Shown: piece by piece, positions 3,870 to 25,243 of the stretch | Numbering within the stretch: the stretch's first letter is position 1 | Layout: each line of letters starts with the position of its first letter | From: Tsuneonella rigui | GTDB lineage: Bacteria; Pseudomonadota; Alphaproteobacteria; Sphingomonadales; Sphingomonadaceae | NCBI RefSeq assembly: GCF_003958625.1 | Contig: NZ_RSEL01000017.1 | Span: forward strand, 1 to 39,667 | Length of the DNA stretch: 39,667 nt | Direction: 5' to 3' | Notes under the pieces: model-generated | What the model was told of the DNA's origin: nothing | The model's input: only the letters and a program-made list of their open reading frames with translations | Database searches by the model: none | Position numbers and translations under genes: made by a program

Positions 3870-4139
3870 TCAGTCGAACCGGTGATCGACAATGAACCAG
3901 GCCCGAGCTTCATCATCGTACTCACACTTCCAATCCTCATGGAAGGTGCTTTGAGCGGCACCGATGGTCGGGAAGATGCCCAAGGCCACCAGCCGCTCGC
4001 GATCCTTCTTCGCGGATTCTGCCGCAGCCCGCTCACATTCGCCACGCGAAGCGTAGGGGACATCGGTCGGGTGAGCCAGCGCGACAGGGCCAGAAGCCGC
4101 CGCGCTAAACGCCAGGACCATAGTGATTAGCTTTTTCAT
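3870..4139 (-). CDS. Small secreted two-cysteine protein, paralogue of 11745-12056
   Basis: An 89-residue precursor with a signal peptide (about residues 1-22, ending near 'PVALA'), leaving a mature part of about 67 residues. The mature part contains 'YASRGECERA' and 'CEYDDEARAWFIVDHRFD'. The two Cys could form one disulfide in the periplasm or outside the cell. The same pattern (RGECE ... CEYDxxxxAWFxxDHR) recurs in the gene at 11745, so the two are paralogues flanking the Slam/lipoprotein cluster. The start has a clear AGGAG about 7 bases upstream. An array of five 11-bp repeats lies 50-104 bases upstream. No family is recognised and the function is unknown. Shared promoter elements suggest it works with the surface lipoproteins. 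Confidence 0.75.
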   Translation of the reverse strand: MKKLITMVLAFSAAASGPVALAHPTDVPYASRGECERAAAESAKKDRERLVALGIFPTIGAAQSTFHEDWKCEYDDEARAWFIVDHRFD

Positions 4140-4188
4140 GTCACTTCTCCTTTCGACGAGGAGCGGAGACTGCGCGGGACTAGAAGTT

Positions 4189-4243
4189 GGTGCGATGATG
4201 GAATCGCGATGTTTTGCCGATGGTTCGCTGATGTTTCACCGAT
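4189..4243 (-). promoter_or_regulatory. Operator array A: five 11-bp direct repeats
   Basis: On the plus strand the triplet GAT recurs at 4197, 4208, 4219, 4230 and 4241, exactly every 11 bases. The best units are GTTTTGCCGAT, GGTTCGCTGAT and GTTTCACCGAT. Read toward the gene at 4139 these are ATCGGCAAAAC-like units, the same as in arrays B, C and D. The spacing matches tandem binding by OmpR/PhoB-type winged helices (known for that family); assignment to the regulator at 8984 is inference. Confidence 0.7.
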
Positions 4244-4333
4244 AAGACACAGTGTGATGTCGGCTTTCCACCCAACTTTGGTCACCAGTCAGCCAGCCGC
4301 AACCTCCATTGCCGACACACGATGGGAGCCTAT

Positions 4334-5683
4334 TCAATAGGCGCGCACGAGGCCGATTTCCGCTCGAATGCGGTTGAAGCGGTGGAGCGTGATAGTGCTC
4401 CGGTTGCGCTGCAGCTCCACCTTCACGAACGGCGCGAAACCGGCGACCTTGAAGGTGCGCATCTGCGCGCTGAGCGAGGCCTGCAGGCTGCTGTCCGACC
4501 GGCGCGAGAGGAACACCGGTAGACGCTCGTCGAACCACAGTCGGCCGTGGGTGGCGGACGCTACCACCGTGGTGGGGCCGAAGTCGCGATAGCCGAACAC
4601 CGTCACTTGGCCGCCGAAGCTCGAATAGAACGGCGCGGCGAGGTCGTCGCGCTGGAGGTTCAGGCTCGCCCCGCCTCCGCTGGCGACTGACAGCGCACGC
4701 TCGTATTGCAGCGAGGCGGACAGGGTGTGCCCGTCCTGGCCAGCGTTGAGGCGGTTGTCGATCACGCCGGCGGCCAGCGTTGCGCGGAGTTGCGAGCGGC
4801 GGTCCAGCGCATGGAGATAGCTCGCGGACAGCGTCCCGGTGCGTGCGTAGGCTTCGCCGCCGAACCAGTGGATGTCTCCGCCAAGCTCCAGGTTGAGCCG
4901 GTCCCTGCCGAGCGCGAACTCCGGCCCGGCGGCAAGTCCCGCGATAACCTCGTTGAACGCGCCCTTCGCGTAGAGGGTGGCCGACGCCGAGGCGCGGCCG
5001 AGGATGCTGGTGTGTGCGCCGAGAGAGTGCCGGGCATAGACCTGACCCCGCGCGGCGAGCCCGATGCCGGAGCGCGCCCGCGCCGCCTCATCGAGCGTGA
5101 GATCGCCGAGCACGGTCCCTAGGACATCGGCACGGGTGGCGCGGTTGACGTTGCTGTCGGGGGCGAGGGCGACTTCGAGGCTGCCGCCAAACGGCTTGCG
5201 CGCGCGCAGGGCGGCCGAATAGCGGTCGACCATCCGCACCACCTCGGGAGGCAGGTCTCCGGCCTGCACCTCGCGCAACGCCTTGCGGGCGCCCGCTTCG
5301 TCGCCCATCAGATCGAGTACGCGCGCATACTCGAGACGCACCCGCTGGGCGCCCGGCTGCTCGTCGAGGATCTCGCGTAGCAGCAGCGCCGCCGCGGGGT
5401 AACGCTCGGCTCGTGCGAATTGGAGGGCCAGCCGGAAGCGCGCCTCCGCCCGCACGTCGCGCGAGGGGTCCGCGAACAGCGCGCGATAGAGCGATTCCGC
5501 GGCCGCGGCATCGCCGGACTGCGCCGCGCGGTTGGCAAGGGCCAGCAGTTCGTCGGCGGACAAGCTGACGCGGTCCGGTGGCGGCTCTTGCGCGCGTGTG
5601 CCCAGCGGCGCGAGCAGCGCCGCTAGGAGCAACGCGCATGATGCGGCCCGGCGCCGCGCCCGGCGGGTCTTGCGCGTCGCCAC
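4334..5683 (-). CDS. Slam-type surface lipoprotein assembly modifier (TPR + DUF560-like barrel)
   Basis: A 449-residue outer-membrane protein predicted to move lipoproteins to the cell surface. After an Arg-rich signal peptide (about 1-31), residues about 40-155 are helical TPR-like repeats ('ALANRAAQSGDAAAAESLYRAL', quoted in part). Residues about 165-449 are alternating beta-strands of a barrel, opening with 'SLEVALAPDSNVNRATR', a hallmark of Slam/DUF560 proteins, and ending in an aromatic residue (RAY). The length fits the family. It starts 7 bases after the stop of the TbpB-like lipoprotein gene at 5691-6683, so the two are co-transcribed, matching the known pairing of Slams with their cargo. 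The second lipoprotein at 10644 is a likely second cargo. Confidence 0.85.
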   Translation of the reverse strand: MATRKTRRARRRAASCALLLAALLAPLGTRAQEPPPDRVSLSADELLALANRAAQSGDAAAAESLYRALFADPSRDVRAEARFRLALQFARAERYPAAALLLREILDEQPGAQRVRLEYARVLDLMGDEAGARKALREVQAGDLPPEVVRMVDRYSAALRARKPFGGSLEVALAPDSNVNRATRADVLGTVLGDLTLDEAARARSGIGLAARGQVYARHSLGAHTSILGRASASATLYAKGAFNEVIAGLAAGPEFALGRDRLNLELGGDIHWFGGEAYARTGTLSASYLHALDRRSQLRATLAAGVIDNRLNAGQDGHTLSASLQYERALSVASGGGASLNLQRDDLAAPFYSSFGGQVTVFGYRDFGPTTVVASATHGRLWFDERLPVFLSRRSDSSLQASLSAQMRTFKVAGFAPFVKVELQRNRSTITLHRFNRIRAEIGLVRAY

Positions 5684-5690
5684 AGCGCGC

Positions 5691-6683
5691 CTAATCGCGC
5701 TTCGCGGCGATGACCCCGCGCGTGGTCAACCAGCTTTGCGTCTGATTGCTGTAGAACGGCAGCTCGAACCGCGAGACGAGCTCGGCCGCCTTGGGCCCGG
5801 CGAAAAGGCCGCTGAAGGTTCCCAGCGATGGTGCGCCCGGCGTCTGCAACTGTCCGCTGAAGGTCGTCGCCCCGTGCAGGAAGCTGGTATTGGTGAAGGT
5901 GTAGGTAGCGCGCGGGGACGTGCAGCCCATCAGGCAGTTGATGCTTGCTGTGAGATTGCCGGACAGGATCGCCTTCGCGAAATCGAAGTCGAAGTGCGCG
6001 ATTCCGGTGATCCAGCTTCCAAACGCATCGCGCTCGAACGCGCCATTGAGTTCGCCGGTGTAGCTGGCGGTTCCGGTGGTGGGCACGTCGCCCGCCTTGG
6101 TCGGCTGGGCGACTGCGAAGAACCCGTACGCGAGCGTAGCCAGCCCGCTCTGGATCGGCGCCTGCGCATAAAGATCGACGAACGAAACGTAGCTGTATTT
6201 CGACTGCGGCTGACCCGCCTGCGCAATCGACAGGGCTGGGCCATAGGCGTTGGTGCTCTTGTTCGCAGGGTCCGCCCGGATCGTCGCGGGGTATGGATAA
6301 GTCTCGAGCGCGCTCACCTGCATCAGCGTGCCGGAACCCGCCACCGGAGCATCGACGGCATAGCGGCCGGAGGCGGCGTCGTAGGTGATCGCAAAGCCCG
6401 TCACGTCGCGTCCGTTCTGGAACGCGCCGGAGTTGGGCGGGGTATCGTACTGCCAGCCCGTGCCGACGGTCGCCAGCGCGGGGTTGTACAAGGGATCTTT
6501 GAACACCGCGGCCGGCTGCGGGGTGAATGCCGCCGTCGGGGTCGGCGTGGGAGTTGGCGTCGGCGTAGGAGTCGGCACCGGAGCGGGACCGGTGCTGATC
6601 ACCGGAGCGGAGCCACCGCTGCACGCCCCGAGCGGCAGGAACGCCGCGCTGGCCGCCAGCAGGATGAATTTCGAGATTTGCAT
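5691..6683 (-). CDS. TbpB-like surface lipoprotein, probable Slam cargo
   Basis: A 330-residue protein. Residues 1-20 form a lipoprotein signal with the lipobox 'PLGAC'. A Pro/Thr repeat linker follows (about residues 33-50), encoded by in-frame 6-base repeats. The rest is beta-rich. The pattern 'LAYGFFAVAQPTKAGDVPTTG' followed by 'SYTGELNG' and 'FDFDFAKAILSGNL' matches the beta-barrel fold of TbpB/HpuA/FHbp-type surface lipoproteins. The start at 6683 was chosen over longer options because the lipoprotein signal begins there. It is transcribed with the Slam gene just downstream and divergently from the TonB receptor at 6871. Operator array B lies 80-112 bases upstream. The ligand is unknown; the TbpA/TbpB analogy suggests capture of an iron source. 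Confidence 0.8.
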   Translation of the reverse strand: MQISKFILLAASAAFLPLGACSGGSAPVISTGPAPVPTPTPTPTPTPTPTAAFTPQPAAVFKDPLYNPALATVGTGWQYDTPPNSGAFQNGRDVTGFAITYDAASGRYAVDAPVAGSGTLMQVSALETYPYPATIRADPANKSTNAYGPALSIAQAGQPQSKYSYVSFVDLYAQAPIQSGLATLAYGFFAVAQPTKAGDVPTTGTASYTGELNGAFERDAFGSWITGIAHFDFDFAKAILSGNLTASINCLMGCTSPRATYTFTNTSFLHGATTFSGQLQTPGAPSLGTFSGLFAGPKAAELVSRFELPFYSNQTQSWLTTRGVIAAKRD

Positions 6684-6762
6684 GAGCGTGGTCCTCTGCC
6701 TCCCCCGCATTGGTGCCGGGTCGGGGCGGAGAAGAGCGCGAGCGCGGCGGTTAAGCCATGAG

Positions 6763-6795
6763 AGGGCGCCGATGGTTTGCCGATGATTTGCTGAT
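6763..6795 (-). promoter_or_regulatory. Operator array B: three 11-bp direct repeats in a divergent promoter region
   Basis: GAT recurs at 6771, 6782 and 6793 on the plus strand. Read toward the lipoprotein start at 6683 the units are CATCAGCAAAT, CATCGGCAAAC and CATCGGCGCCC. They lie between the lipoprotein-Slam operon and the TonB receptor gene, so one array could control both. Confidence 0.7.
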
Positions 6796-6870
6796 GATCG
6801 TCGTGCGGCCGGTCTATCGACCGGATTTCCATCGACAAATGCGCGTCGCGGCGGCAGCTTTGTCCGCCTG

Positions 6871-8940
6871 ATGGGTGCACGGCACAACCGCATCGCCGAT
6901 CGCGCGTTCGCGCACGTGCCGGCCGCGCTGATGCTGTGCTGCGCGGCCGAAGCCCATGCGTCCGAGCCAGCCAACCCGATCGTCGTCACCGGGGAACGCC
7001 AGCGGCGGCCGGTGGTGGATACGCCGTCGAGCGTGGCGGTCGTCTCGGGCGATGAGCTCGACCGACAGATCGGCTCCACTCGAATCGAAGATGTCCTGAC
7101 GGCGATCCCCAACGTGCAGATCGGCTCGGGGAGCGAAGGACCGACCATTCGCGGGCAGGACGGCAACGGCCCGCTGCGCGATCTGCCCGCATTCCTGAGC
7201 GGCAACCGGCCACGGGTGACGCTCCAGATCGATGGCCGCCCGATCGGCTACAACGAGCTCGCCTATGGCGTCGCGAACCTATGGGACCTCGACCGGGTCG
7301 AGGTCTACCGCAGTCCGCAGACGACCACCCAGGGCCGCAACGCGATCGCCGGGGCGATCTTCGCTTATACTAGGAATCCGACCTTCGAATGGGAAGGCCG
7401 CGCGCGCGGGCTAATCGGGACATACGATACGCGGCAGCTCTCCGCGGTCGTCTCGGGACCGGTGGTCGATGACGCTCTCGCGTTTCGGCTGTCGGGCGAT
7501 GTCCGCGCGAGCCGCCCGGCGAGCCGGATCACCGCGCCCGGGGCGGGGATCGACTACAATCGCGATCGCTATCAAATACTCCGCCTGAAGCTGCTCGCAA
7601 CGCCGCCCGGTACGGAAGGTCTCCGGCTCACCGCGACCGCGACGCATAATCGGTCGGCCGGCCCGCAGATCGAAGGCGTGCGGGCGCCGTTCGATGCGCG
7701 CCGCGACCCAGAAGCCACCTACGGCTTTTTTGATCTCCGCGTCGATTCTGCCGCAGTGCAGGGAGAATGGGACTTCGCCCCCGGCTGGACAGCCGCGCTC
7801 ACCGCGACCGCCGGCGATGCGACGATCCGCCGAACCGCTCCGCCCGGGTTCGGCGTGACCGCGGTGAAGGGACGCGACTATGGCCTCGAGAACATCGTCA
7901 CCTGGCGGCCCAATGACACCACGACACTGTTGCTGGGCGCAAACTGGTCGCGCGCGACGCTGGGGCAGGAAATCGATCTCACCGCAGCGCTTCTAGGCCG
8001 CGGGGTTTTCACCGATGCCCAAGAATCGCTCGGGCTGTTCGGGCAGGCCGAGTGGCTGCCGGTGCCGCGCCTCAGGCTCGCAGCCGGAGTCCGCTACCAG
8101 CGCGATGCGCAGGATCGCACGGGCCTGCTCGGTATCGGCACTCCCGCGCCGCAAGCGCTGGACTTTCACCGCGTGTTCGAGCGCATACTGCCGCGCCTGA
8201 GCGCGACCTGGAAGCTGTCCGACGGCGTCCACGTGGGCGCGCTGGTACAGCAGGCTTACAATCCGGGTGGGGTCAGCCTCGATGCCCGGCGCCGCTTGGT
8301 GCAGACCTTCGAAGCGGAGACCCTTTGGGACTATGAGCTGTTCGTGCGCGTCGCCGATCCTGCCGCGACGCTCAGCGGGTCGCTCAACGCTTTCTATTAC
8401 GACCAAGCCAATCCGCAGCGGACCCTGCAGCGCCAGATCGTTACTCCGGCCGGTATCGTCACCATTGCGGAGATCGGCAACGCGATCGCGGGGCGCAGTT
8501 ACGGCGCGGAGTTCGAGGAGCGCTGGCGCCCGTCGAACCGCCTGACCCTGTCGGCGGCAGTGGGCATCTTGCGCACCCGGCTGACCGGCACGGCCTCGGC
8601 CACCGACCCGCTGCTGGGCAAGGAATTCCAGCTCTCCCCGCGCTTGACGGCTTCCGCTGCCGCCGAGTGGCGCCCGCTTGATCGCTTGCTTCTCTGGCTA
8701 CGGGCACGCCATCACAGCGGCTACTTCAGCGACGACGTCAACGATCCTGCGCGCCGGGTGGCCGCGGCCGAGGTGGTCGACGCGAACGCGACCTGGACGG
8801 TGGGCGATCTCGCGGTCTCTGCTTATCTGCGCAACGCTTTTGATGCTTTCTACCTGACCTACCACAGCGGACCGGGCTCGCGCCTGGCGGTGGCCGGCGA
8901 TCCGCGTGAGGCGGGGCTCTCGGTCGATTTGCGGTTTTGA
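6871..8940 (+). CDS. TonB-dependent outer-membrane receptor
   Basis: A 689-residue receptor with a signal peptide ending near 'EAHAS', then a TonB-box-like segment 'NPIVVTGER'. A plug domain covers about residues 45-165 ('SSVAVVSGDELDRQIG', 'VEVYRSPQTTTQGRNAIAGAI'), and a 22-strand type barrel runs to the C-terminal Phe ('SVDLRF'). It should import a ligand with energy from TonB-ExbBD; the substrate cannot be read from the sequence. It is divergent from the lipoprotein-Slam operon across operator array B and is followed at once by the winged-helix regulator. In TbpAB- and HpuAB-like systems a TonB receptor pairs with a surface lipoprotein, and the same division of labour is inferred here. No strong ribosome-binding site was seen at this start. 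Confidence 0.85.
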   Translation: MGARHNRIADRAFAHVPAALMLCCAAEAHASEPANPIVVTGERQRRPVVDTPSSVAVVSGDELDRQIGSTRIEDVLTAIPNVQIGSGSEGPTIRGQDGNGPLRDLPAFLSGNRPRVTLQIDGRPIGYNELAYGVANLWDLDRVEVYRSPQTTTQGRNAIAGAIFAYTRNPTFEWEGRARGLIGTYDTRQLSAVVSGPVVDDALAFRLSGDVRASRPASRITAPGAGIDYNRDRYQILRLKLLATPPGTEGLRLTATATHNRSAGPQIEGVRAPFDARRDPEATYGFFDLRVDSAAVQGEWDFAPGWTAALTATAGDATIRRTAPPGFGVTAVKGRDYGLENIVTWRPNDTTTLLLGANWSRATLGQEIDLTAALLGRGVFTDAQESLGLFGQAEWLPVPRLRLAAGVRYQRDAQDRTGLLGIGTPAPQALDFHRVFERILPRLSATWKLSDGVHVGALVQQAYNPGGVSLDARRRLVQTFEAETLWDYELFVRVADPAATLSGSLNAFYYDQANPQRTLQRQIVTPAGIVTIAEIGNAIAGRSYGAEFEERWRPSNRLTLSAAVGILRTRLTGTASATDPLLGKEFQLSPRLTASAAAEWRPLDRLLLWLRARHHSGYFSDDVNDPARRVAAAEVVDANATWTVGDLAVSAYLRNAFDAFYLTYHSGPGSRLAVAGDPREAGLSVDLRF

Positions 8941-8983
8941 ATGGCCCTCGCGGGCAGCAGCGTCATTCGCTAGATGTGCACCG

Positions 8984-10525
8984 GTGAACGACGGTCAGGT
9001 GCCTTTATCTTCCACACTGCGCGCGACCGCTCAGCCGCTCGCCGCGCGCGCCGATTTTCGCGCCGGCGACCTGCTGATCCGCCCCTCCATGCTGTCTATC
9101 GAAGGACCTGGCGGTAGCGCCAAGGGAGAGCCGCGGGTCATCCGGGTGCTGGTTGCGCTCGCTGACGCGCAAGGCGGCGTGCTGTCGCGTGACATGCTGC
9201 TGGAACAGTGCTGGGATGGCCTGATCGTCGGCGACGACGCGATCAATCGCGCGGTCGCCGAGCTGCGGCGGCTGATCGCGTCGGTTGGCGGGCAAGTCGA
9301 GGTGCAGACCGTCCCACGGGTGGGCTACCGGCTGGAAGCGGGGGATGTCCTGGCTCAGAGTACCGAGGAGAAGCGACCCACTGCTGGCGCCAGCCGCTCC
9401 AGTCGCCGCGCGATGCTGATCGGCGGGGCCGCGTTGCTTGCCGTGGGAGCGGGCGGGACGGCGCTCTATTTAGACCGCAGCCAACGCGGCACGGTGGACG
9501 AGCTGATCGAACGAGGCCGCGTGCTGCAGGCCACGGGCGGCCCCGACACCAAGCAACGCGCCGCCGCGCTGTTTCGGCAAGCGATCGAAGCCGATCCCGG
9601 GCGCGCCGACGCGTGGGGGTGGCTTGCGGCAGTCACTATCGGCAGCGGTAAGGCCATTGCACACGCGCAGCGCGCCCTTGCGCTCGATCCGAGCGAACCC
9701 AACGCGCGCGCGGTGATGGCTGTCGAACGGCTCGATCTCGATGACTGGATCACGTACGAAGACACGTTGCTCGGTATCGTGCGCGATGCCCCCGAATGTG
9801 CCCTCGCGCTCGCGCAGATCGTCCTGTTTTACCAAGGCATGGGTCGGTGCGTGGATTCGCTGCGCTACAACGAGCGCGCTATTGCGGTCGAGCCGTTCAA
9901 TCCCGCGCATCAGGCTCGCCGGTCTATGAAGCACTGGATCTTCGGCGATCTCGCCAAGTGCGATCAGGTGGCCAATCGCGCGATGCAGCTCTGGCCGCGC
10001 GAGCCGATCGTGTGGAACGCGCGGATGATCACGCTCGCTTTTACCGACCGCCCGTACGCTGCCGGGGTGCTGCTCGACGACAAGGCCAAGCGGCCAGGCA
10101 ACCTCAGCCCACCAACGATAGGGGCATGGCGCGCGACCTTGCAGGCCATCGCCGATCGCCGTGCGGGTCCTTCGCGAAACGATGTGGCGGTCATGGTTGA
10201 CACTGCGATGCAGTCGCCGGGCATGGCGGCCAATGCGATCATGGCCCTCTCGTACATCGGCTTGCTCGATGAGGCCTATCAGGTCGCCGACGGCCTGCTG
10301 ACCCAGAGCGGTCAGGTAGTGCAGCGCACCAGCGGCTCGCTCGCGCGCGACATTTACGCCGGCCCGGTGTGGGGTCGCACCCAGTTCGTGTTCGTGCCGG
10401 CGTGCGCGAACTTGCGCAACGATCGGCGGTTCACCGCCTTGTGTGCGCGGACGGGCCACCTCGCGTATTGGCAGAAGCGCGGGATTGGTCCCGACAAGTT
10501 CGTCAGGGGATCGATCAAGCTCTAG
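8984..10525 (+). CDS. CadC-like membrane regulator: winged helix, one TM helix, TPR-like sensor
   Basis: About 513 residues from a GTG at 8984; a GTG at 8999 is also possible, and longer starts fall inside the receptor gene. Residues about 25-120 form an OmpR/PhoB-type winged helix ('GVLSRDMLLEQCW', 'DDAINRAVAELRRLI', 'VQTVPRVGYRL'). Residues 143-163 are a single transmembrane helix. Residues about 175-500 are helical TPR-like repeats predicted in the periplasm ('AALFRQAIEADPGRADAWGWL', quoted in part). There is no receiver domain, so it would be a one-component regulator like CadC/ToxR. It is the only regulator in the cluster, and its DNA-binding class suits the four 11-bp repeat arrays. The regulator-operator link is inference. 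Confidence 0.8.
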   Translation: MNDGQVPLSSTLRATAQPLAARADFRAGDLLIRPSMLSIEGPGGSAKGEPRVIRVLVALADAQGGVLSRDMLLEQCWDGLIVGDDAINRAVAELRRLIASVGGQVEVQTVPRVGYRLEAGDVLAQSTEEKRPTAGASRSSRRAMLIGGAALLAVGAGGTALYLDRSQRGTVDELIERGRVLQATGGPDTKQRAAALFRQAIEADPGRADAWGWLAAVTIGSGKAIAHAQRALALDPSEPNARAVMAVERLDLDDWITYEDTLLGIVRDAPECALALAQIVLFYQGMGRCVDSLRYNERAIAVEPFNPAHQARRSMKHWIFGDLAKCDQVANRAMQLWPREPIVWNARMITLAFTDRPYAAGVLLDDKAKRPGNLSPPTIGAWRATLQAIADRRAGPSRNDVAVMVDTAMQSPGMAANAIMALSYIGLLDEAYQVADGLLTQSGQVVQRTSGSLARDIYAGPVWGRTQFVFVPACANLRNDRRFTALCARTGHLAYWQKRGIGPDKFVRGSIKL

Positions 10526-10547
10526 CGCGCTGTGTAACGCAAGCTTC

Positions 10548-10591
10548 CATCGGCAAAGCATCGGCGAAATGTCGGGCGGTCATCATGGCCT
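10548..10591 (+). promoter_or_regulatory. Operator array C: 11-bp direct repeats before the second lipoprotein gene
   Basis: ATC/GTC triplets recur at 10549, 10560, 10571 and 10582, exactly 11 bases apart. The first two units are CATCGGCAAAG and CATCGGCGAAA. The last unit reads CATCATGGCCT, also present in array D. The array ends about 55 bases before the ATG at 10644. Confidence 0.7.
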
Positions 10592-10643
10592 TGATGTCCG
10601 CGCGCCGCGAAGCTGCTCCACCAACTCAAGTGGAGGACCAGCC

Positions 10644-11627
10644 ATGTTCCGCGCACCTGCCAAAGCCTCGTTGATCGCGCTCGTGCTGCTAGCCGGGGGG
10701 TGCGGCGGCGATGAAGTGGCCCGCATCGCTTCGGCGCCCGTGCCGCTGGCGACGCCCACGCCCTCACCGACACCGACGCCGACACCTACACCGCCTCCGG
10801 TGGCGGAAGGCTTTGCGCTTAAAAGCGACAAGCCGTTCGTCACGTACGGCCTCTCCGAAGTCGACACCTTAGGTTCCGCGTCCAGCCTCTCAGGGTCGAA
10901 GGATAACGAGAAGTTCGTCGCCACCCGTCCGGGCAGCCGCGATCAGAGGGTCGACTTCAGCTACAATAGCGCGACCGGCGAATATTCGCTGGCCTTGCCC
11001 GACGGGCTGGCCGACAAGCTGATCCCCATCGGGCAGCAGTCGACCAACTGGTCGGCGCATCGCGTGAGCGATGGCACGCATGCCGAGGCCTATGTCTCGC
11101 TTCCCAAGCCCGGCAGTGAATGGTCCCCTTATTCCTACTCGCACTTCGGCTACTGGGAGCAAACGGGCGCCGATGCCGGCCTGACGCGAACCTACGGCGT
11201 ATTCGCCTACGGAAGCGAAACGCCCGCCTCCGGCGTGCCGGTCACCGGGACCGGAACATACAACGCATCGATCTTCGCAACGTCGACCGCCGATCCTTTC
11301 TGGGTCGACGGGACGGCGAAACTGGTGTTCGATTTCGGCAAGGGGACGCTTAGCGGCTGGATCCACCCGGTGCACCAGACCAATGGCTGGTATCCCGATT
11401 ACGACTACGACTACGGCCAGTTCGATTTCGTCCAGACGCTCTACGCGTCCGGCAGCGCGCGCTACTCGGGCAAGTTCGCCAAGGACGGCACCACGCTGGA
11501 GGGTTCATTCTTCGAAGGCAGCCTGACCGGGCCCTCGGCTTCGGAAACAGTAGCGCGCTTCGTCGCCCCGTTCGTGCGCAACGGCCAGCCCGGATCGATC
11601 AGCGGGGTGTGGGTCGGCAAGAAATGA
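10644..11627 (+). CDS. TbpB-like surface lipoprotein, paralogue of 5691-6683
   Basis: A 327-residue lipoprotein. The signal ends in the lipobox 'LAGGC', followed by a Pro/Thr repeat linker (about residues 36-51) and a beta-rich body. 'YSHFGYWEQTG ... TYGVFAYGSETPASGVPVTGTGTYNA' (discontinuous quotation) aligns with 'YVSFVDLYAQA ... YGFFAVAQPTKAGDVPTTGTASYTG' of the other lipoprotein, so they are clear paralogues of TbpB-like barrel type. 'VFDFGKGTLSGWI' is the matching strand pair. A Tyr/Asp-rich loop ('YPDYDYDYGQFD') is unique to this one. The start has GGAGG about 8 bases upstream. It follows the regulator on the same strand but has its own operator array C. It is a likely second cargo of the Slam at 4334. 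Confidence 0.8.
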   Translation: MFRAPAKASLIALVLLAGGCGGDEVARIASAPVPLATPTPSPTPTPTPTPPPVAEGFALKSDKPFVTYGLSEVDTLGSASSLSGSKDNEKFVATRPGSRDQRVDFSYNSATGEYSLALPDGLADKLIPIGQQSTNWSAHRVSDGTHAEAYVSLPKPGSEWSPYSYSHFGYWEQTGADAGLTRTYGVFAYGSETPASGVPVTGTGTYNASIFATSTADPFWVDGTAKLVFDFGKGTLSGWIHPVHQTNGWYPDYDYDYGQFDFVQTLYASGSARYSGKFAKDGTTLEGSFFEGSLTGPSASETVARFVAPFVRNGQPGSISGVWVGKK

Positions 11628-11630
11628 AAA

Positions 11631-11674
11631 AATCAGCCAAGCATCGGCGTGCCAACGGCGCCCCATCATGGCCT
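11631..11674 (+). promoter_or_regulatory. Operator array D: 11-bp direct repeats before the second small secreted gene
   Basis: ATC, ATC, AAC and ATC recur at 11632, 11643, 11654 and 11665, 11 bases apart, in the same orientation to the downstream gene as arrays A-C. The unit CATCATGGCCT is shared with array C. It lies about 70 bases before the ATG at 11745. Confidence 0.65.
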
Positions 11675-11744
11675 GATGATCGGCTTCGCGAGAGGTTTGT
11701 GACCGTCCCGCAATCCGGCGGGTTAGAACAAGGAGCATCCTCCA

Positions 11745-12056
11745 ATGAAGATCGTTCTTACCGCGCTTGGCGTGGCCGCCGTTTTGGTCGCCTCGCCGGC
11801 CGTCGCCAATCACATCTTTACCCCCACTGCCTTCGACACGCGGGGTGAATGCGAATCCGAGAACGCGCGGCTCAGCAACGACGATGCCGAGCGGCAATTC
11901 CCGCTGCGACCCGACCTGTTCTCGAGCCTAGGGGAGGCGCGCAGTTTCATGACCCGCGCATTCACCTGCGAATACGATGCCGACGAGGACGCCTGGTTCC
12001 TTACCGACCATCGCAGGGAAATCATCGCCAGCGACTGGTTCAAGCGGCGGCAGTAA
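11745..12056 (+). CDS. Small secreted two-cysteine protein, paralogue of 3870-4139
   Basis: A 103-residue precursor with signal peptide 'MKIVLTALGVAAVLVASPAVA'. The mature part carries 'FDTRGECESEN' and 'CEYDADEDAWFLTDHRRE', the same spacing and residues as in the gene at 3870. Two Cys (one per motif) could pair. The ribosome-binding site is AAGGAG about 10 bases upstream. It is preceded by operator array D and follows the second lipoprotein gene. The lipoprotein-plus-small-secreted-protein arrangement occurs on both sides of the cluster, suggesting duplication of a pair. Function unknown. Confidence 0.75.
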   Translation: MKIVLTALGVAAVLVASPAVANHIFTPTAFDTRGECESENARLSNDDAERQFPLRPDLFSSLGEARSFMTRAFTCEYDADEDAWFLTDHRREIIASDWFKRRQ

Positions 12057-12391
12057 AAGGTTATCAGTGTGCTCCGGGCGCGCTTACCGTAGCGTGCCTG
12101 GAGAGTATCCCGCCTTCCGAACTTGACGGGCCCTCGAACGCCCGGACGCCGAGTTTTAGGGCAAGCTATTTGTGTGGGACGCTGGATTTCGCCCGCGCCA
12201 AGCAAGAAATGGCGAGAGGCGCAGATCCAAAAATTCGGTCGGGTAAACGATGGCTGCTATAAGGCCGCATGTGCATCATCCGAATGACTGGGTTTGGGCG
12301 CAAAGCAGCCGCCATGACAATCGGCCAAAGTAGGGCTAGGATTAGGGTTCGCAAATTAGCGGTCTAAAAGACAACGCAATTTCAGAGCGAT
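12057..12391. other. Intergenic stretch before the tRNA-Ser remnant
   Basis: About 335 bases with no convincing gene. Short frames on both strands lack ribosome-binding sites and recognisable domains. It is bounded on the right by the tRNA-Ser 3' fragment and is probably the inner end of an integrated island. Confidence 0.45.
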
Positions 12392-14859: not shown

Positions 14860-17379
14860 CTAGGCGGTCAGCTCGCGCACTCGGCTGGCGAGGACATCGA
14901 CCTCGAACGGCTTCGTGAGGAGGTGCATGCCGGGTTCAAGCTGATGGTCGCCGATCACCGAGCTTTCGGCGTATCCGGTGATGAAGAGCACCTTGAGATC
15001 GGGCCGCAGGATACGCGCGGCATCGGCCAGCTGCCGCCCGTTCATGCCGTTGGGCAGGCCGACATCGGTTACCAGCAGGTCGATCTTGTTGGCGGCCTGC
15101 AACATCGCAAGGCCGCTGGGCCCGTCACCGGCTTCCAGCGTGGTATAGCCCAGATCCTCGAGCACGTCGGCGATCAGCGCGCGGATGATGACCTCGTCAT
15201 CCACGACGAGCACGGTTTCACCCCGCCCCGCCTGCGCGTCGGCCTTCGGTTGCGCCGGCTTGGCGTCACCCACCGCATCCCCGCCGGTGCGCGGAAAATG
15301 CAGGACGACGGTCGTGCCCTGGCCCACTTGCGAGCGGATCTTCACCTGCCCGCCCGATTGGCGGACAAAGCCATAGATCATCGACAAGCCCAGCCCGGTG
15401 CCTTCGCCCAGTGGCTTGGTGGTGTAGAACGGATCGAACGCGCGCTCGATGGTGTCCTGCGACATGCCGGTGCCGGCATCGCGCACCGACACGGTGACAT
15501 AGTCGCCCGGTTCCAAATCGAACTCGCGCGCCGCATCAGCGTCGAGCGTGCGATTGGCGGTCTCGATCGTGATCTCGCCCCCGCGCGGCATGGCGTCGCG
15601 CGCGTTGATGCAGAGGTTGAGCAGCGCGTTTTCAAACTGGTTCGGGTCAATCAGCGTGGTCCACAAATCCGCGCCGCTATCGATCCGGACGTTGATCTCC
15701 GGCCCCACCGACCGGCGAAGAAACTCCTCCAGGTTGGCGATGAGCTGATTGATATCGCTCGGCTTGGGATCGAGCGTCTGGCGGCGCGAGAATGCCAGCA
15801 GGCGATGGGTCAGCGCGGCCGCGCGCGTGATGCCCGATTGCGCCATGTCGAGGTAGCGGCCGATCTCCCCGATGCGGCCCTGCTCCAGCCGGCGGCCGAT
15901 CAGTTCGAGCCCGCCCGAAACGCCGGTCAGCAGGTTGTTGAAGTCGTGCGCCAGCCCGCCCGTTAGTTGGCCGACCGCTTCCATCTTCTGTGCCTGGCGC
16001 AACTGCTCCTGAGCCGCTTCGCTCTCCTGCGTTCGCTCGACAACCTGCTGCTCGAGCGAGCCCGCGAGATTCGCGAGCGCCGCCTCCGCCAGCCGCCGCT
16101 CGATCGCGGCCTGTGTCCGGTCGGCGACATCGCGCACGAAGGCCAGCTCGTCCTCGGACCACTCGTGCGCATCGCGGTGGTTGAGATAGAGCAGCGCGAC
16201 GAAGTTGTTGTGATCGATCAGCGGCATGTTCAGCACCGCGCGGGCGTGAATAGCCTCGAGCGCGCTCGCCGTCCCGGCCGTGCGCGGATCGAGCCGGGCG
16301 TCGGCGATCGCCACCGTCTCGCCGCGCTTTAGGTCCTCGATGTACGATCCGTAGTCGCGGAACTGGAGCACGCCGGCGAGGCTGGTGGTGCCCGGCTGGT
16401 TCCAGTCGCGCTTGATGGTGATCGTCTCGGCCACGGGATCGATGATCCCGTAACCCGCGCGGCTGACCCCGATCGTGGTTCCGAGGATTTCGGCGGCAAG
16501 GAACGACATGTCGTCCGGATCGGTGAGCTGCCGCAACCCGTCGCCGAGCGCCAGCAGCGCCGCGCGGCGGTTCTCGCGCTGGCGCCGGGCGGTCACGTCC
16601 TGGGTGACGCCGACCATGCGCACCGGCTTGCCCTGGTTGTTGTGCTCCAGCCGTCCATTGACCTGGATCCAGTGCGTCGAGCCGTCGGGCCAGACGCAGC
16701 GATACTCGATGTCATAGTCGACATCGTTCTCGATCGCATTGCGGACCGCCGCGCGCATCCGCTCGCGATCGTCCGGGTGGATGGCCTCGATCAGCTCTTC
16801 ATAGGTGAGCGTATCCTCGGGCCCGCGCCCGTAATGCGCCATGCCGTCGGGCGAGACCGTCAGTTCGTTCGTCTTGAGAACGGCCGACCACGAGCCCAGG
16901 CGTCCGGCGCCGAGCGCGACCTGCATGCGCTGCTGGCCTTCGCGAATCGCTTCGATCCGCCCGCGCGCCTCGTACTGCCGCAAGCGTGCGCGCCGCGCGG
17001 ACCGTGCGAGGCTGACCAGCGTAGTCGGATGGAAGGGCCGCTCGAGGAAGGTGACGTTGCCGAGCACCTCGAGCAACCGGGCCGCACCGGGATTGCGCTC
17101 CAATCCCCCGCCACGGGCCGTCAGGACGATGAACGGGAAGTCCGACCATTCGTCCTGGTCGGCGATGAATGCCGCCAGCTCGCGCAAGTCGGCCCCGCGC
17201 AAGGTTTCCTCGGTGACGATCGCAAAGCCCGCGCCACGCCGAAGCGCCGCGACGAACGCGCCCAGGTCAGGCTCGATTTCCGCCTCGATCTTCGCTTCGC
17301 GCAGCATTTGCTGCGCGATCAGGGCATCGCGACCATGCGGGGCGAGGATCACTGCCCCTTCGGAGAACGTCCGATTCAA
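14860..17379 (-). CDS. Hybrid sensor histidine kinase (pseudo-receiver, PAS, GAF, HisKA, HATPase, REC)
   Basis: An 839-residue cytosolic kinase with no transmembrane segment. Residues 1-130 resemble a receiver domain without a clear phospho-acceptor. Residues about 150-265 are a PAS domain ('[19 protein letters not shown]'), about 280-430 a GAF domain, and about 430-465 a coiled coil. The HisKA domain has His478 in '[10 protein letters not shown]'. The ATPase domain lies at about 575-695 ('[10 protein letters not shown]', 'DAGTGMS', '[13 protein letters not shown]'). A C-terminal receiver at about 720-835 has phospho-acceptor Asp772 ('LLVTDVGLP'). It starts 6 bases after the KaiC-like gene and is surely co-transcribed with it. 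The pair suggests a KaiC-linked phosphorelay; signal and output are unknown. Confidence 0.85.
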
Positions 17380-17385
17380 GTCGGC

Positions 17386-18864
17386 TTACGCCTCGGCCTT
17401 GTTGAGCAAGCCAGTGGTCTCACCCACCAAGGTCGGCACGCCGCGAAGGACACCCTGGAACCCGACAAGAGGCTCGCCGAGCGTAATACCATTCGAACCG
17501 ATCATATATTCGCGGATCGTATCTTCGTGGCTGCCCGTACGCTTCTTGACGATCGAGATCGCGCGGCGGACACGGCCAAGCGCCTCAAAATAGCGCAGCA
17601 GGATCACCGTATCGGCCAGATAAGTCACGTCGATAGGGGTTTTCATGTCCCCGACCAACCCATGCTGGGCAACGGTGAGGAAGGTCGTTGCGCCTTGGCG
17701 GTTCAGGTATTGCAGCAACTCGTGCATGTGCAGGACCAGCGCCTGCTCTTCCGGCATGGCGGCCTGGAAGCCGTTGAGGCTGTCGATGACGACGGTGCGC
17801 GCTCCGTACTTCTCGACGCAGCGCCGTACCCGTTCGGAAAACTCGCCGGGTGTCAGCTCGGCTGCGTCGATTTGTTCGACAACCAGTTTCTCCGCATCGA
17901 CCATCGCCTGAAGGTCGATTCCCAAACCTTTTGCGCGTTCAAACAGCAGGCCCAGCTCTTCGTCGAACACGAACATCGCGGCGTTCTCTCCGCGCTCGAT
18001 CGCTGCCGTGATGAACGTGAGCGTGAAGAGCGATTTACCAGTACCAGCCGGACCCAGAATGAGGTTGCTCGCGCCCCGCTCCAGCCCGCCGCCCAGCAGC
18101 TTGTTCAGCCGCTCGTTGTCGATCGACACGGTCTCGCGGGTGAAGGGGGACCGGTGCTCTGCGGACACCAGCCGCGGGAACACCCGGATCCCGCCGGTCT
18201 CGATCACGAAGTCGTGGTAGCCACCCCGATAGCGCCGTCCACGGTACTTGAGCACGCGCAGGCGCCGACGCTCGGCACCGTAGTCGGGCGATAGCTCCTC
18301 CAACCGGATGACCGCGTGCGCGACGCTGTGGACGGTCTTGTCCATTACGTCGGCAGTCAGGTCGTCGAGCATCAGGACGGTCGCGCCCTTGTGGGCGAAG
18401 TAGTGCTTGAGCGCGAGAATTTGCCGCCGGTAGCGCAGCGAACTTTGCGCCAGCAGCCGAATTTCCGACAGGCTGTCGAGCACGACACGGGTCGGCTTGG
18501 CCTGCTCGAATGCCTCGAAAATACGCTTGGTGGTCTCACCCAGCTCAAGGTCGGAGGAGTAGAGCAGGCTCTGCTGCTGGTCCTGATCGAGCAGGCTTTC
18601 CGGCGGAATGAGCTCGAATACCTTGAAGTTGTCGCCGAAGCTCCACCCATGCGAGGTGGCGCCGGCACGCAATTCCTCCTCGGTTTCCGACAAGGTGATA
18701 TAGAGCACCGTCTCGCCCGCTTCGGCGCCGGCGAGCAGGAACTGCGTCGCGAGCGTAGTCTTGCCCGCGCCGGGGCTTCCTTCGAGCAGAAACAGACGTC
18801 CGGCAGTGAGCCCCCCAGCGAGAATCTCATCGAGCCCAGCAGCACCCGTCGAATAGTTTTGCAT
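17386..18864 (-). CDS. kaiC: KaiC-like double-domain ATPase
   Basis: A 492-residue protein with two RecA-like KaiC domains. The first has Walker A 'GSPGAGKTT' at residues 29-37 and the Glu pair in 'SETEEEL'. The second has 'GPAGTGKS' at 271-278 and 'FDEELGLL'. The start at 18864 is preferred (GAGAGG 8 bases upstream, family-like 'YSTGAAGLDEIL'); an upstream start at 18897 exists. Aligned with cyanobacterial KaiC, the Ser431-Thr432 phosphosite pair falls at Thr-Tyr in 'DVTYLADT'. No KaiA or KaiB gene is nearby. Such proteobacterial KaiC homologues are known in stress and signalling roles. Here it precedes a hybrid kinase by 6 bases, so it may tune that kinase. A true clock is not implied. Confidence 0.85.
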   Translation of the reverse strand: MQNYSTGAAGLDEILAGGLTAGRLFLLEGSPGAGKTTLATQFLLAGAEAGETVLYITLSETEEELRAGATSHGWSFGDNFKVFELIPPESLLDQDQQQSLLYSSDLELGETTKRIFEAFEQAKPTRVVLDSLSEIRLLAQSSLRYRRQILALKHYFAHKGATVLMLDDLTADVMDKTVHSVAHAVIRLEELSPDYGAERRRLRVLKYRGRRYRGGYHDFVIETGGIRVFPRLVSAEHRSPFTRETVSIDNERLNKLLGGGLERGASNLILGPAGTGKSLFTLTFITAAIERGENAAMFVFDEELGLLFERAKGLGIDLQAMVDAEKLVVEQIDAAELTPGEFSERVRRCVEKYGARTVVIDSLNGFQAAMPEEQALVLHMHELLQYLNRQGATTFLTVAQHGLVGDMKTPIDVTYLADTVILLRYFEALGRVRRAISIVKKRTGSHEDTIREYMIGSNGITLGEPLVGFQGVLRGVPTLVGETTGLLNKAEA

Positions 18865-18967
18865 GAGCCCTCTCCCACGCATTAAGTTGACACGCATAAC
18901 CCTTTGGTTGCGGGGAAAGTTCCGGATTCGTCAAGCATCTTGGGTGGCGTGCGCCTAACCGGCCGCC

Positions 18968-20250: not shown

Positions 20251-20874
20251 GTGGCCAATGGGGATCAGCACGTGCGCCGATTGGTGATTGCATTGATGGG
20301 ACTGGTGGCGATGGCGCTCAGCGCCGCGCCCGCGTCTGCGCAATTGTCGAGCACGGTCTACGAAGGCCAGTCGATCCCGCTCTCCATCCCGGTCACCGCG
20401 AGCGTCGGCGGACGGTGTCAGTTCGCCACCAACGGCGCGCCGACCGGCAGTTTCGATGCGGGGCTGATCGATCAGGTGACCTGGTCGCATGACTTCGGCT
20501 TCACGATCGACTGCAACACCGCGGCGCGCGTGGCCGTGGTCTCGCTCAACGGCGGGCTCAAGGCCCCGACCACGGTGAGCGACCCCGGCTACCTCGGCCT
20601 CGCTCCCTACACCGTCACGCTCAATCTCGACGGCAACACGGTCGATACCAACGCGTCGTGCCTGGTCGAAACGCTCAAGGCGACCGCCGCGGGCCCCTGC
20701 TCGTTCCGCGGCCCCGCTTCGACCACCGCGGGCCTGCGGCTCGCCGGGCCGTCGCAAAACCAGACCCAATCATATCTGCGGGTCAGCGCGCCCGCCTACA
20801 CCGGGCCCGGCACGCTGATCTCGAGCAACGCCTACGCCGACACCCTGACCATAACCATAGCGGCTGCGCCATGA
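20251..20874 (+). CDS. Spore-coat-U (Csu) type pilus subunit, first gene of the operon
   Basis: A 207-residue secreted protein from a GTG start; a GTG at 20272 is also possible. The signal peptide ends near 'PASAQ'. The mature part has four Cys and ends in the strand motif 'NAYADTLTITIAA', typical of the last strand of SCPU-domain pilins in archaic chaperone-usher systems. It is larger and more Cys-rich than the next four subunits. It heads the operon that runs through the usher and tip subunit. Its exact place in the fibre cannot be told from sequence. Confidence 0.7.
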   Translation: MANGDQHVRRLVIALMGLVAMALSAAPASAQLSSTVYEGQSIPLSIPVTASVGGRCQFATNGAPTGSFDAGLIDQVTWSHDFGFTIDCNTAARVAVVSLNGGLKAPTTVSDPGYLGLAPYTVTLNLDGNTVDTNASCLVETLKATAAGPCSFRGPASTTAGLRLAGPSQNQTQSYLRVSAPAYTGPGTLISSNAYADTLTITIAAAP

Positions 20875-20954
20875 ACGCGGCGGCACTCTTTCGCGGACAA
20901 GGGATCGTTCCGCACCAACTCGGCCGCGCAGCGGCAAACGGAGGTAACGTAACC

Positions 20955-21524
20955 ATGAAGAAGCTTGCTCTGGCGGCGCTCGCCGTCTCTGCCGCGATGG
21001 CGACTCCCGCCGCCGCGCAAAATGTGACCGGCACGGTCAACATCACGGGCAGCGTCGCCCCTAAGTGCTTCGTGCTGCCCAACAATGCGGGCAACACGTT
21101 CGGCACAACGGTGGCAATGGGCGAACTCGCTCAGAGCGATGGCACGCTCAAGGACTCGGCGACTTTGTCGAACACTTTCGCCACCGTCGGCGGTACCGGC
21201 TTGCAGGCCCAAGTTCTGTGCACCTCGGCCACCCCGGGCGTGTCGGTCACTGCGGAGCCGCTCGTGAACACCGCGACGGCCGACACCGGCTATGACAATT
21301 CAGTCGACTATACCGCCGACGTCACTTTCACGCAGGTGGTTGGGACGACCGCCGTGCATGATCCCAGCAACGTGCCCGCCGCTTCGACTGCGACGCTGAC
21401 GAGCCGCCTCAATGGCAGCGGCACCAACGTCGCCGTCGCCACCAGCGGCTGGAACGCCTCGGGCGTGCTCGTCTCGGGCAACTACACCGGCAAGATCACC
21501 ATCGTCGTTTCGCCGGGCACCTGA
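20955..21524 (+). CDS. Csu-type pilin subunit
   Basis: A 189-residue precursor: signal peptide 'MKKLALAALAVSAAMATPAAAQ' (cut after AAA/AQ), then a beta-rich mature domain starting 'GTVNITGSVAPKC' with a second Cys at 'VLCTSATPGVSV', the usual single disulfide. The C-terminal strand is 'SGNYTGKITIVVSPG'. GGAGG lies upstream of the start. It sits 80 bases after the first subunit gene. Low-complexity Thr/Ala/Val composition suits a major polymerising subunit. Confidence 0.7.
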   Translation: MKKLALAALAVSAAMATPAAAQNVTGTVNITGSVAPKCFVLPNNAGNTFGTTVAMGELAQSDGTLKDSATLSNTFATVGGTGLQAQVLCTSATPGVSVTAEPLVNTATADTGYDNSVDYTADVTFTQVVGTTAVHDPSNVPAASTATLTSRLNGSGTNVAVATSGWNASGVLVSGNYTGKITIVVSPGT

Positions 21525-21558
21525 GCCCGGCGCGATTGAACCGTACAAGGACACCATC

Positions 21559-22101
21559 ATGCGTAAGTCACTACTTCTGCTGGCTCCGGTCGCCCTCGCG
21601 GCGACCCCGGCGCTGGCGCAGACCGCCGATGCGACCGGCACCGTCTCGATCGACGGCTCGGTCGCCGGGCGCTGCCTGTTCACCACTCCGAGCGCGACCA
21701 TCTCGCTCAACGAGCTGGCGCTGTCGGGCAGCGACACCAACGCCGGCAAGCTGAACACGGCCGCCGTCAACGGCAAGACCGCGACGCTGGTCGGCTGGTG
21801 CAACAGCGCCGCCGCCGGGATGACCGTCCAGGCCTTCCCGCTGCTCAACGCCGCGACCAGCGCGACCGGCTTCACCAACCGCGTCGATTTCACCGCCACC
21901 GCGACCGCCAACTCCGCCTCGGGCACCGACACGACGCTGGTCGCGGGATCGGGCACGCCGGTCTCGGTCGGGATGTTCACCGGCAATGTCGGCGTCGCGC
22001 TGTCGGCGTCGTCGGCACCCGGCAACGCCCTTCTGGTCGCCGGCACCTACAACGGCTCGGTCGAAGTGACCCTGTCTCCGGTGTTCACCCCGCCGGCCTG
22101 A
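21559..22101 (+). CDS. Csu-type pilin subunit
   Basis: A 180-residue precursor with signal 'MRKSLLLLAPVALAATPALAQ' (cut after ALA). The mature start 'GTVSIDGSVAGRC' parallels the preceding gene, a second Cys follows in 'LVGWCNSA', and the last strand is 'AGTYNGSVEVTLSP'. It is a paralogue of the 20955 gene. AAGGA lies about 10 bases before the ATG. Confidence 0.7.
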   Translation: MRKSLLLLAPVALAATPALAQTADATGTVSIDGSVAGRCLFTTPSATISLNELALSGSDTNAGKLNTAAVNGKTATLVGWCNSAAAGMTVQAFPLLNAATSATGFTNRVDFTATATANSASGTDTTLVAGSGTPVSVGMFTGNVGVALSASSAPGNALLVAGTYNGSVEVTLSPVFTPPA

Positions 22102-22134
22102 GCGGGCTGACCAGTTTGTCCAGGAGATCGTAGC

Positions 22135-22719
22135 ATGCGTACGCTTTTCATCACCTCGGCCCTGACCTTGGCCGCCATCGGCTCGCCCGCGTTCGCGCAG
22201 GCGACCGATAGCGACACCGCCGATGTCGCGATCGAGGGCAACGTCACGCCGCTGTGCGTGCTGGGAGAGCCGTCGCAGGCTTCAATCAACCTGGGCAACC
22301 TGATCGCCACCTCGGGCACGCGGGTCGGCAAGATCCGCACGATCGCGAACCAGAGCGTCACGCTGCCGGCCAGCTTTTGCAATTTCGCAGGGTCGGTCGC
22401 CAGCGTGTCCGCGACGGCGCTGGTCGAGACGGCCAACGGCACCACCGCACCGCCGACGGGGTTCGCGCGGGCGGTCAACTACACGGCGGTCGCCGGCCAG
22501 TGGGGCGGCGGCACCGCCTCGGCGACCACCGCCGCGACCGCCAGCGGCACCAACGCGACGACCACCGGATCGAGCTCGGTTCAGCAGACTCCCCGCCAGA
22601 CCGACCTGACGGTCGACCTCTCGGCCTTCACGGCTCCCGGAGACGGGTTGCTGGTGTCCGGCAGCTACTCGGGCCTCGTCCGCGTGACGCTCGGCCCGGC
22701 GGCGGTCACCGAACAATGA
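22135..22719 (+). CDS. Csu-type pilin subunit
   Basis: A 194-residue precursor with signal 'MRTLFITSALTLAAIGSPAFAQ' (cut after AFA). The mature part has 'VAIEGNVTPLCVLG' and 'LPASFCNFAG' as the Cys pair, a Thr/Ala-rich insert ('TAATASGTNATTTGSSS'), and last strand 'SGSYSGLVRVTLGP'. GGAG lies before the start. Its end overlaps a possible start of the next subunit. Confidence 0.7.
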   Translation: MRTLFITSALTLAAIGSPAFAQATDSDTADVAIEGNVTPLCVLGEPSQASINLGNLIATSGTRVGKIRTIANQSVTLPASFCNFAGSVASVSATALVETANGTTAPPTGFARAVNYTAVAGQWGGGTASATTAATASGTNATTTGSSSVQQTPRQTDLTVDLSAFTAPGDGLLVSGSYSGLVRVTLGPAAVTEQ

Positions 22720-22733
22720 ACAAGGATCTTCTC

Positions 22734-23297: not shown

Positions 23298-23298
23298 G

Positions 23299-24467: not shown

Positions 24468-24495
24468 CGTGAACCGGCATCTTCGAGGGACGCAC

Positions 24496-25242: not shown

Positions 25243-25243
25243 G

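Follow-up and report, generated by a model that had tools for sequence, protein, structure and literature searches.

The window analysed here, 39,667 bases long, is an entire contig of the 2.86-Mb genome of Tsuneonella rigui, and it carries a Slam-type surface-protein cluster in which tandem arrays of 11-bp units stand before four genes or operons, together with a gene for a membrane-anchored regulator, REG, that is proposed to bind them. The gene order is SM1, SLAM and LIPO1 on the minus strand, then TBDR1, REG, LIPO2 and SM2 on the plus strand (TPR, tetratricopeptide repeat), and the features are as follows:

SM1, 3870 to 4139, minus strand: small protein with a signal-peptide-like start; no Pfam or NCBIfam match at E<=0.01
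SLAM, 4334 to 5683, minus strand: TPR plus SlipAM outer-membrane barrel (Pfam SlipAM, 9.7e-7); start uncertain
LIPO1, 5691 to 6683, minus strand: TbpB-like Slam-type lipoprotein (Pfam TbpB_B_D, 7.5e-7; NCBIfam slam_lipo, 1.2e-5, below its cut-off)
TBDR1, 6871 to 8940, plus strand: TonB-dependent receptor, plug and barrel; no STN domain among its Pfam matches
REG, 8984 to 10525, plus strand: N-terminal CadC/PhoB-type winged helix, one membrane segment and a C-terminal TPR region; the proposed array binder
LIPO2, 10644 to 11627, plus strand: second Slam-type lipoprotein (NCBIfam slam_lipo, 1.8e-7, below its cut-off)
SM2, 11745 to 12056, plus strand: small protein of the SM1 family (SM1/SM2 identity 34%)
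Array a1, 4190 to 4244, minus strand: five units, TATCGGTGAAA CATCAGCGAAC CATCGGCAAAA CATCGCGATTC and terminal CATCATCGCAC (4190-4200), 51 bp before SM1
Array a2, 6753 to 6796, minus strand: four units, CATCAGCAAAT CATCGGCAAAC CATCGGCGCCC and terminal TCTCATGGCTT, 70 bp before LIPO1-SLAM
Array a3, 10548 to 10591, plus strand: four units, CATCGGCAAAG CATCGGCGAAA TGTCGGGCGGT and terminal CATCATGGCCT, 53 bp before LIPO2
Array a4, 11631 to 11674, plus strand: four units, AATCAGCCAAG CATCGGCGTGC CAACGGCGCCC and terminal CATCATGGCCT, 71 bp before SM2

The cluster has the features of a Slam (type XI secretion system, T11SS) locus, with SlipAM scoring 29.0 bits (cut-off 22) and the TbpB_B_D match of LIPO1 30.1 bits (cut-off 26); LIPO2 was assigned from its sub-cut-off slam_lipo match only. 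Each array in the window consists of three or four CATCRGCRAAN-like units and a distinct gene-proximal unit (TCATGGC or TCATCGC). The sequence-only reading had claimed four arrays in uniform orientation to the gene, and all four were found so; read in register they have the extents listed above, the earlier range for a2 (6763-6795) having omitted the terminal unit at 6753-6763. That reading recognized the repeated units but overlooked the distinct terminal one. No array in the window points at TBDR1; at locus L115, an array precedes an unclassified gene and TBDR1 lies downstream of that gene.

The arrays are present in the window and are not due to chance. When a 44-bp matrix was built from three arrays, the held-out one ranked first among 78,534 window positions with 33.7-41.0 bits, and the next best site reached at most 18.5 bits; a chance repeat was rejected on this rank. 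The claimed 11-base period is real, as tandem pairs of a unit matrix, itself built from nine units of the arrays, scored up to 31.8 bits at spacing 11 and at most 16.6 at spacings 8-10 and 12-15. Self-similarity within the window, measured free of any motif, is weaker evidence: at offset 11, positions 6766 and 4207 were top in 22-base windows (18 and 17 of 22), 11628 was tied fourth to sixth (14 of 22), and 4207, 6755 and 11642 were the top three in 33-base windows.

REG relatives were found at E<=1e-20 in 31 of 249 genomes of the family, in a search that scored fewer candidates per genome than a later check of 11 genomes. Stretches of up to 18-20 kb around these relatives were scanned, as were 80 named-genome loci kept as the best of 162, for which a helix motif or an EPRV-type motif was demanded and E-values are rough; some of the named loci belong to genomes already in the first set, and genes were called by our own heuristic script and are likewise rough. 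The scan of related clusters proposed in the sequence-only reading revealed similar arrays beside REG relatives in many genera and so did not refute that reading, for which a lack of such conservation would have counted as refutation, the named array-bearing hosts being mostly Sphingomonadales, with some Phenylobacterium and one Caulobacter. With a matrix trained on the four window arrays only, an array was located within about 400 bp, up- or downstream, of 60 of 115 REG relatives vs 2 of 115 in reversed sequence. By set, hits above 12 bits were present at 19 of 51 first-set loci and 41 of 64 named-genome loci (reversed, 1/51 and 1/64); 15 of the 80 named loci had been dropped because the last 150 residues of the regulator were identical to those at an earlier locus, and two loci (L082 and L247) had no called regulator. 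The loci are not independent, and after thinning at 50% identity the counts were 32/73 vs 1/73 reversed, and at 40% identity 17/41 vs 1/41.

Similar results were obtained with a matrix from the four window arrays at gene starts, where hits above 12 bits preceded 19 of 51 regulators, none of the 51 in reversed sequence, and 16 of 634 other genes at the same loci (Fisher p 2e-14), several of the latter being array targets themselves. Motif-free comparison upstream of regulators gave offset 11 as the strongest (24/112 vs 18/1040), followed by offset 8 (5/112 vs 11/1040). For a 33-bp matrix, trained on 23 arrays in loci that were then scanned, the register hits, several per array, numbered 76 at more than 8 bits in 1.13 Mb (the training loci among them) and 106 at more than 12 bits in the 1.16 Mb of named loci; neither reversed sequence gave any. 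L054-L089 except L059 were outside the training. Thirty arrays could be aligned without gaps over 44 bp. On a FastTree tree of 113 regulators (3 of 116, shorter than 400 residues, were left out, and deep branches are weak), arrays occur in both halves and may therefore be ancestral, and the 25 regulators linked to a TBDR1-like receptor cluster together (7 changes vs 22.9 shuffled). REG and such a receptor are recurring neighbours, often tail to tail, even where the arrays lie elsewhere (L051-L053, L055, L058, L059, L115, L120, L131, L192 and L195), and this pair is possibly the input side of the system.

The position of the arrays relative to the promoter was examined in 81 distinct arrays, 20 of 101 having been dropped as near copies, aligned on their terminal units. 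These were picked by a TC[AC]T rule that dropped arrays lacking one uncounted (L114 among them) and placed the unit too far in L052 and L087. Beyond the unit a single clear signal appeared, an A at +29 in 66% of the arrays and a T at +33 in 45%. Both bases occurred together in 27 of 81 arrays, compared with a mean of 3.5 over 79 offsets and 12 at +30, the runner-up. The two strongest positions of the -10 hexamer are an A and a T spaced four bases apart; here, a -10-like hexamer would start at +28, 17 bp past the 11-bp terminal unit, at a distance that is observed to be fixed. The terminal unit would thus cover the -35 position (about -40 to -30), and the upstream units would be centred near -46, -57 and -68, a layout that corresponds in the predicted promoters to the class II activation geometry of PhoB or TcpP. 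The candidate -10 elements of the window, placed from the 81-array alignment, have the T in 4 of 4 and the A in 3 of 4 cases:

Candidate -10 of a1, 4167 to 4172, minus strand: CAGTCT, 17 bp past the terminal unit
Candidate -10 of a2, 6730 to 6735, minus strand: TCTTCT, without the conserved A
Candidate -10 of a3, 10609 to 10614, plus strand: GAAGCT
Candidate -10 of a4, 11692 to 11697, plus strand: GAGGTT

A search of 4130-12100 for a consensus sigma-70 promoter found none, and shuffled sequences average 0.8, so this carries little information. By a loose count, three contiguous units were present in 34 of the 81 arrays, four in 23, five in 14 and fewer in 10, and a same-strand gene start followed within 450 bp in 71. 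These data also bear on the suggestion that the arrays are a mobile or selfish element like the repetitive extragenic palindromic (REP) sequences, or a chance run, with no regulatory role. The composite-pattern match L122 has no target and is still among the 81 aligned arrays, and L114 lies inside a called gene. The L122 match looks REP-like. However, only one of the 81 arrays is entirely within a called gene (L131 8052-8084, close to the 3' end) and 3 overlap one in part, the arrays have a fixed orientation to genes and a fixed distance to the -10-like signal, and the sequence downstream is mostly unrelated, as the 81 of 101 distinct arrays indicate. A REP-like element was rejected on the fixed orientation, the fixed distance and the rarity of intragenic copies, and a non-regulatory repeat of any kind is extremely improbable.

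REG has the marks of a ToxR/CadC-like one-component regulator, namely a winged helix without a receiver, a membrane segment and a predicted C-terminal sensor. Pfam assigned Trans_reg_C to residues 49-117 (1e-10, 41.9 bits), with weak C-terminal TPR matches (TPR_14, 1.7e-5), and no receiver domain (Response_reg) at E<=0.01, in agreement with the earlier prediction of a regulon not tied to a receiver-domain phosphorelay. The contig carries 1 of the 13 Trans_reg_C matches of the genome, as the claim of a single OmpR/PhoB-type protein in the cluster requires, and hydropathy, the only evidence used here, places a hydrophobic segment after residue 142 (Kyte-Doolittle 1.78), which would be the membrane anchor before the putative TPR sensor. 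The closest solved DNA-binding domain is that of CadC (5ju7, E 1.2e-11), followed by other OmpR-type domains, ToxR and PhoB. Helix 3, probably the recognition helix, was placed by alignment to CadC:

Recognition-helix region of REG, 9227 to 9268, plus strand: VGDDAINRAVAELR

V82, G83, D85, N88, R89 and R95 are invariant in 11 aligned regulators, and the region VG[DE]D[SA][LIV]NR is, like the operator core, common in the family. Comparison of helix variants with arrays yielded no code: Q or H replacing the helix Asn occurs with arrays (L135, L068, L075 and L083), Q also occurs without them (L066 and L134), and both regulators with D at this place (L070 and L212) have no array.

The sequence-only reading had predicted a closed regulon, and this holds in the present T. 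rigui genome at the sensitivity of the profile used. A search of its genome with profile R1 returned only these four sites up to E<=10 (616 first-look candidates, 150 scored), the four being among the 30 arrays, picked beside regulators, on which the profile was trained, so that its genome searches lean towards regulator loci. A closed regulon as a general rule was rejected, as arrays are scattered in the same-genus genomes G047, with four far from any regulator relative, and G347, with four of five; the fifth adjoins a regulator paralog. All 8 unlinked arrays stand before genes for Slam-type lipoproteins (6, one only at E 6e-4) or SM proteins (2). When 397 genomes were searched with a composite pattern, 16 of them had matches, 24 in all and at 23 places, two of the matches overlapping in a2, and the backward-read control had none; the pattern recovered only a2 among the four window arrays, and its matches L114 and L122 look like chance. 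At L123 (G113), a good array (6003-6035, 34.7 bits) has no called same-strand gene downstream, and the target may have been missed by calling or have decayed.

Another OmpR/PhoB-type protein, for example a PhoB-like response regulator, might bind the arrays, with REG in the cluster by coincidence. Twelve other Trans_reg_C matches exist in the genome, the same-genus G326 retains an array without a full-length REG, and the PhoB box is likewise an 11-bp direct repeat, TGTCA-N6-TGTCA, according to the text of PMC11358694. Against this, the distribution of arrays follows REG relatives. The 18 array-bearing genomes found with R1 among the 249 all fall within the 31 that have a relative; training of the profile at regulator loci inflates this agreement. 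A fairer figure comes from 11 composite-pattern genomes outside the building of the pattern, 10 of which have a REG relative (8, if relatives by the DNA-binding domain alone are excluded), compared with the 31 of 249 genomes of the family, and no profile match was found in 16 genomes lacking a relative (12 and 4 from two relative searches). Response regulators are to be expected in all these genomes. Moreover, REG paralogs whose targets are quite different have arrays in the adjoining divergent gap. Binding by another OmpR/PhoB-type protein is unlikely.

In other contexts, these paralogs face a divergently oriented gene for a different envelope protein, and an array lies between the two. Scanning ten array-bearing paralog targets identified PEPxxWA-CTERM proteins (L065, L060 and L191), UrcA proteins (L215 and L200), an outer-membrane barrel (L115), a PD40 protein (L197), an SM protein without matches (L126), a lipoprotein with sub-threshold matches (L125) and, at L139, a protein without matches. 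Such arrays are found across a wider regulator family, whose predicted envelope targets are of several kinds. SM proteins are 89-104 residues long and secreted-looking, with two invariant Cys and an RG-x-CE motif; an array lies upstream of all eight aligned members (SM1 and SM2 of the window and those of L126, L129, L120, L192, L201 and L131), and the three members scanned had no Pfam or NCBIfam match.

Considering the above results, we think it likely that REG, through its winged helix, recognizes the arrays as head-to-tail operators and acts as a one-component transmembrane activator. The arrays, their 11-bp phasing, the -10-like signal at a fixed distance and the association with the regulator family are observed; that REG itself binds, that it activates and that several copies bind together, as well as what it senses, we infer. 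In the proposed mechanism, several REG DNA-binding domains would align on one face of the DNA, one per 11-bp unit, and the gene-proximal domain would occupy the terminal unit TCATGGC, replacing the -35 element 17 bp before the -10. REG would recruit RNA polymerase in the manner of PhoB, with the upstream units adding cooperative binding; the output would be the Slam-type lipoproteins, Slam and the small secreted protein, and the TonB receptor adjoining REG is probably the signal or ligand side. The sequence-only interpretation therefore stands in its core, with the arrays most likely promoter operators and REG their likeliest binder, but not in the generality of the closed regulon.

The opposite sign of regulation was also considered, in which REG would bind as a repressor and occupancy of the -35 would block RNA polymerase until a signal releases it. 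A repressor could sit on a terminal unit covering the -35 just as well, which weighs against activation, and ToxR activates ompU and represses ompT, as stated in PMC6733452. An activator site would better account for the fixed distance from the terminal unit to the -10 and for the additional units upstream, and repression by REG appears improbable.

Several further observations weigh against activation by REG through the arrays. The array at 10548 is absent from the six top motif-free positions listed, and offsets 12 and 15 also score 17 elsewhere in the window; both -10 bases occur in only 27 of the 81 arrays, and a2 lacks the A. At the threshold used, an array is missing from the roughly 400 bp on either side of the regulator at 55 of 115 loci, and array presence is patchy on the regulator tree, with 26 changes (100 shuffles: mean 36.6, least 29). 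Seven of the 25 TBDR-linked regulators have no near array; for six of them an array was found at another place in the locus or genome, and the seventh is at a contig end. Furthermore, 13 of 31 regulator-bearing genomes have no R1 match, and G227, G264, G058, G105, G240 and G139 have a relative and no profile match at E<=0.01, with weak matrix hits adjoining the regulators of G058 and G139. The G326 array (L130 2844-2876, before a lipoprotein-like gene) coexists with a regulator relative at the level of the DNA-binding domain only, and is either read by another regulator or a relic. G347 holds five regulator relatives and one core motif is common to the arrays of paralogs, so that insulation between paralogs is unexplained. 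Finally, CadC of E. coli, as described in the text of PMC5430869, binds two head-to-head AT-rich TTAxxxxT sites.

CadC nevertheless resembles REG in the order of DNA-binding domain, membrane segment and sensor, in addition to being the closest solved domain, and it differs from the present system in that the present arrays run head-to-tail and contain GC in their core and the REG sensor has TPR matches. PhoB shares with REG the winged helix, of the same Pfam family, and binds direct repeats of the same period, with an operator on or next to the -35; unlike PhoB, REG has no receiver and is membrane-anchored, and its arrays mostly have three to five units, with a distinct terminal one. To our knowledge, the TPR is absent from TcpP of Vibrio cholerae. 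TcpP is otherwise like REG a membrane-anchored activator of the PhoB family with an 11-bp repeat, TGTAA-N6-TGTAA (text of PMC11358694), and its site on toxT lies at -55 to -37 (text of PMC8546550), but it uses two repeats, the help of ToxR and a different motif. UzcR of Caulobacter has a site upstream of an UrcA gene in an activator position, and REG paralogs adjoin UrcA genes in L200 and L215; UzcR, unlike REG, belongs to a two-component system with the m_5 motif CATTAC-N6-TTAA, not 11-bp CATCRGC arrays (both points on UzcR as given in PMC8963506). Slam/T11SS clusters with a SlipAM barrel, TbpB-like lipoproteins and a TonB receptor resemble the present one, and their co-occurrence is described in PMC12282271, where a term search of the main text found the word 'regulator' 0 times; the regulator and operators are the additions here. 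A term search for 'tetratricopeptide' in the text of the transmembrane-regulator survey PMC10269533 found nothing, and no account of the operator pattern, the regulator family, its targets or a Tat-type CadC protein (Tat, twin-arginine translocation) was found in the open-access papers searched.

The membrane segment of REG has a further feature of possible functional importance:

R141 R142 and Gly/Ala-rich membrane segment, 9404 to 9472, plus strand: possible internal Tat signal-anchor

Arg-Arg before the membrane segment was present in 104 of 108 aligned rows (5 of 113 were gapped), mostly preceded by S, D or T and followed by x-L-[LIV] and the Gly/Ala-rich stretch. A strict twin-arginine pattern was found in 73 of 84 regulators vs 16 of 1106 internal hydrophobic segments of other proteins, which served as control because a set of other membrane regulators (5 proteins) was too small. 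Plain Arg-Arg at that place was found in 110 of 122 regulators vs 73 of 1106 other segments, and in 69 of 398 other segments with cytoplasmic-looking charges before them. Arg makes up 10.7% and Lys 1.5% of these proteins; charge rules explain part of the Arg-Arg but can hardly account for two exact columns being nearly invariant. The genome encodes TatC, and it is possible that the TPR sensor of REG is Tat-exported through an internal twin-arginine signal-anchor. We give an even chance to the broader proposal of a large alphaproteobacterial one-component family in which a folded sensor would be Tat-exported with the DNA-binding domain inside, a head-to-tail 11-bp code with a terminal unit replacing the -35 would be shared, and each member would drive secreted or surface genes (Slam-type lipoproteins, PEP-CTERM and UrcA).

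Two other regions of the window were recorded. At 20296-28803, a run of small-protein genes with a PapD-type chaperone (2.2e-6) and an usher (8.7e-7) after it is perhaps an atypical chaperone-usher cluster, and at 14860-18897 a KaiC-like ATPase adjoins a PAS/GAF hybrid histidine kinase.

If the proposed reading is true, an unannotated class of membrane-bound regulators would become readable from sequence, with the operator matrix revealing targets and promoter position, and Slam surface display would be tied to a dedicated regulator. A small secreted protein family without database match would be placed beside the Slam output, and the idea of a Tat-exported transcription-factor sensor would be raised. 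Furthermore, the scattered promoters would provide a natural test of the way in which a regulator held in the membrane finds its sites.

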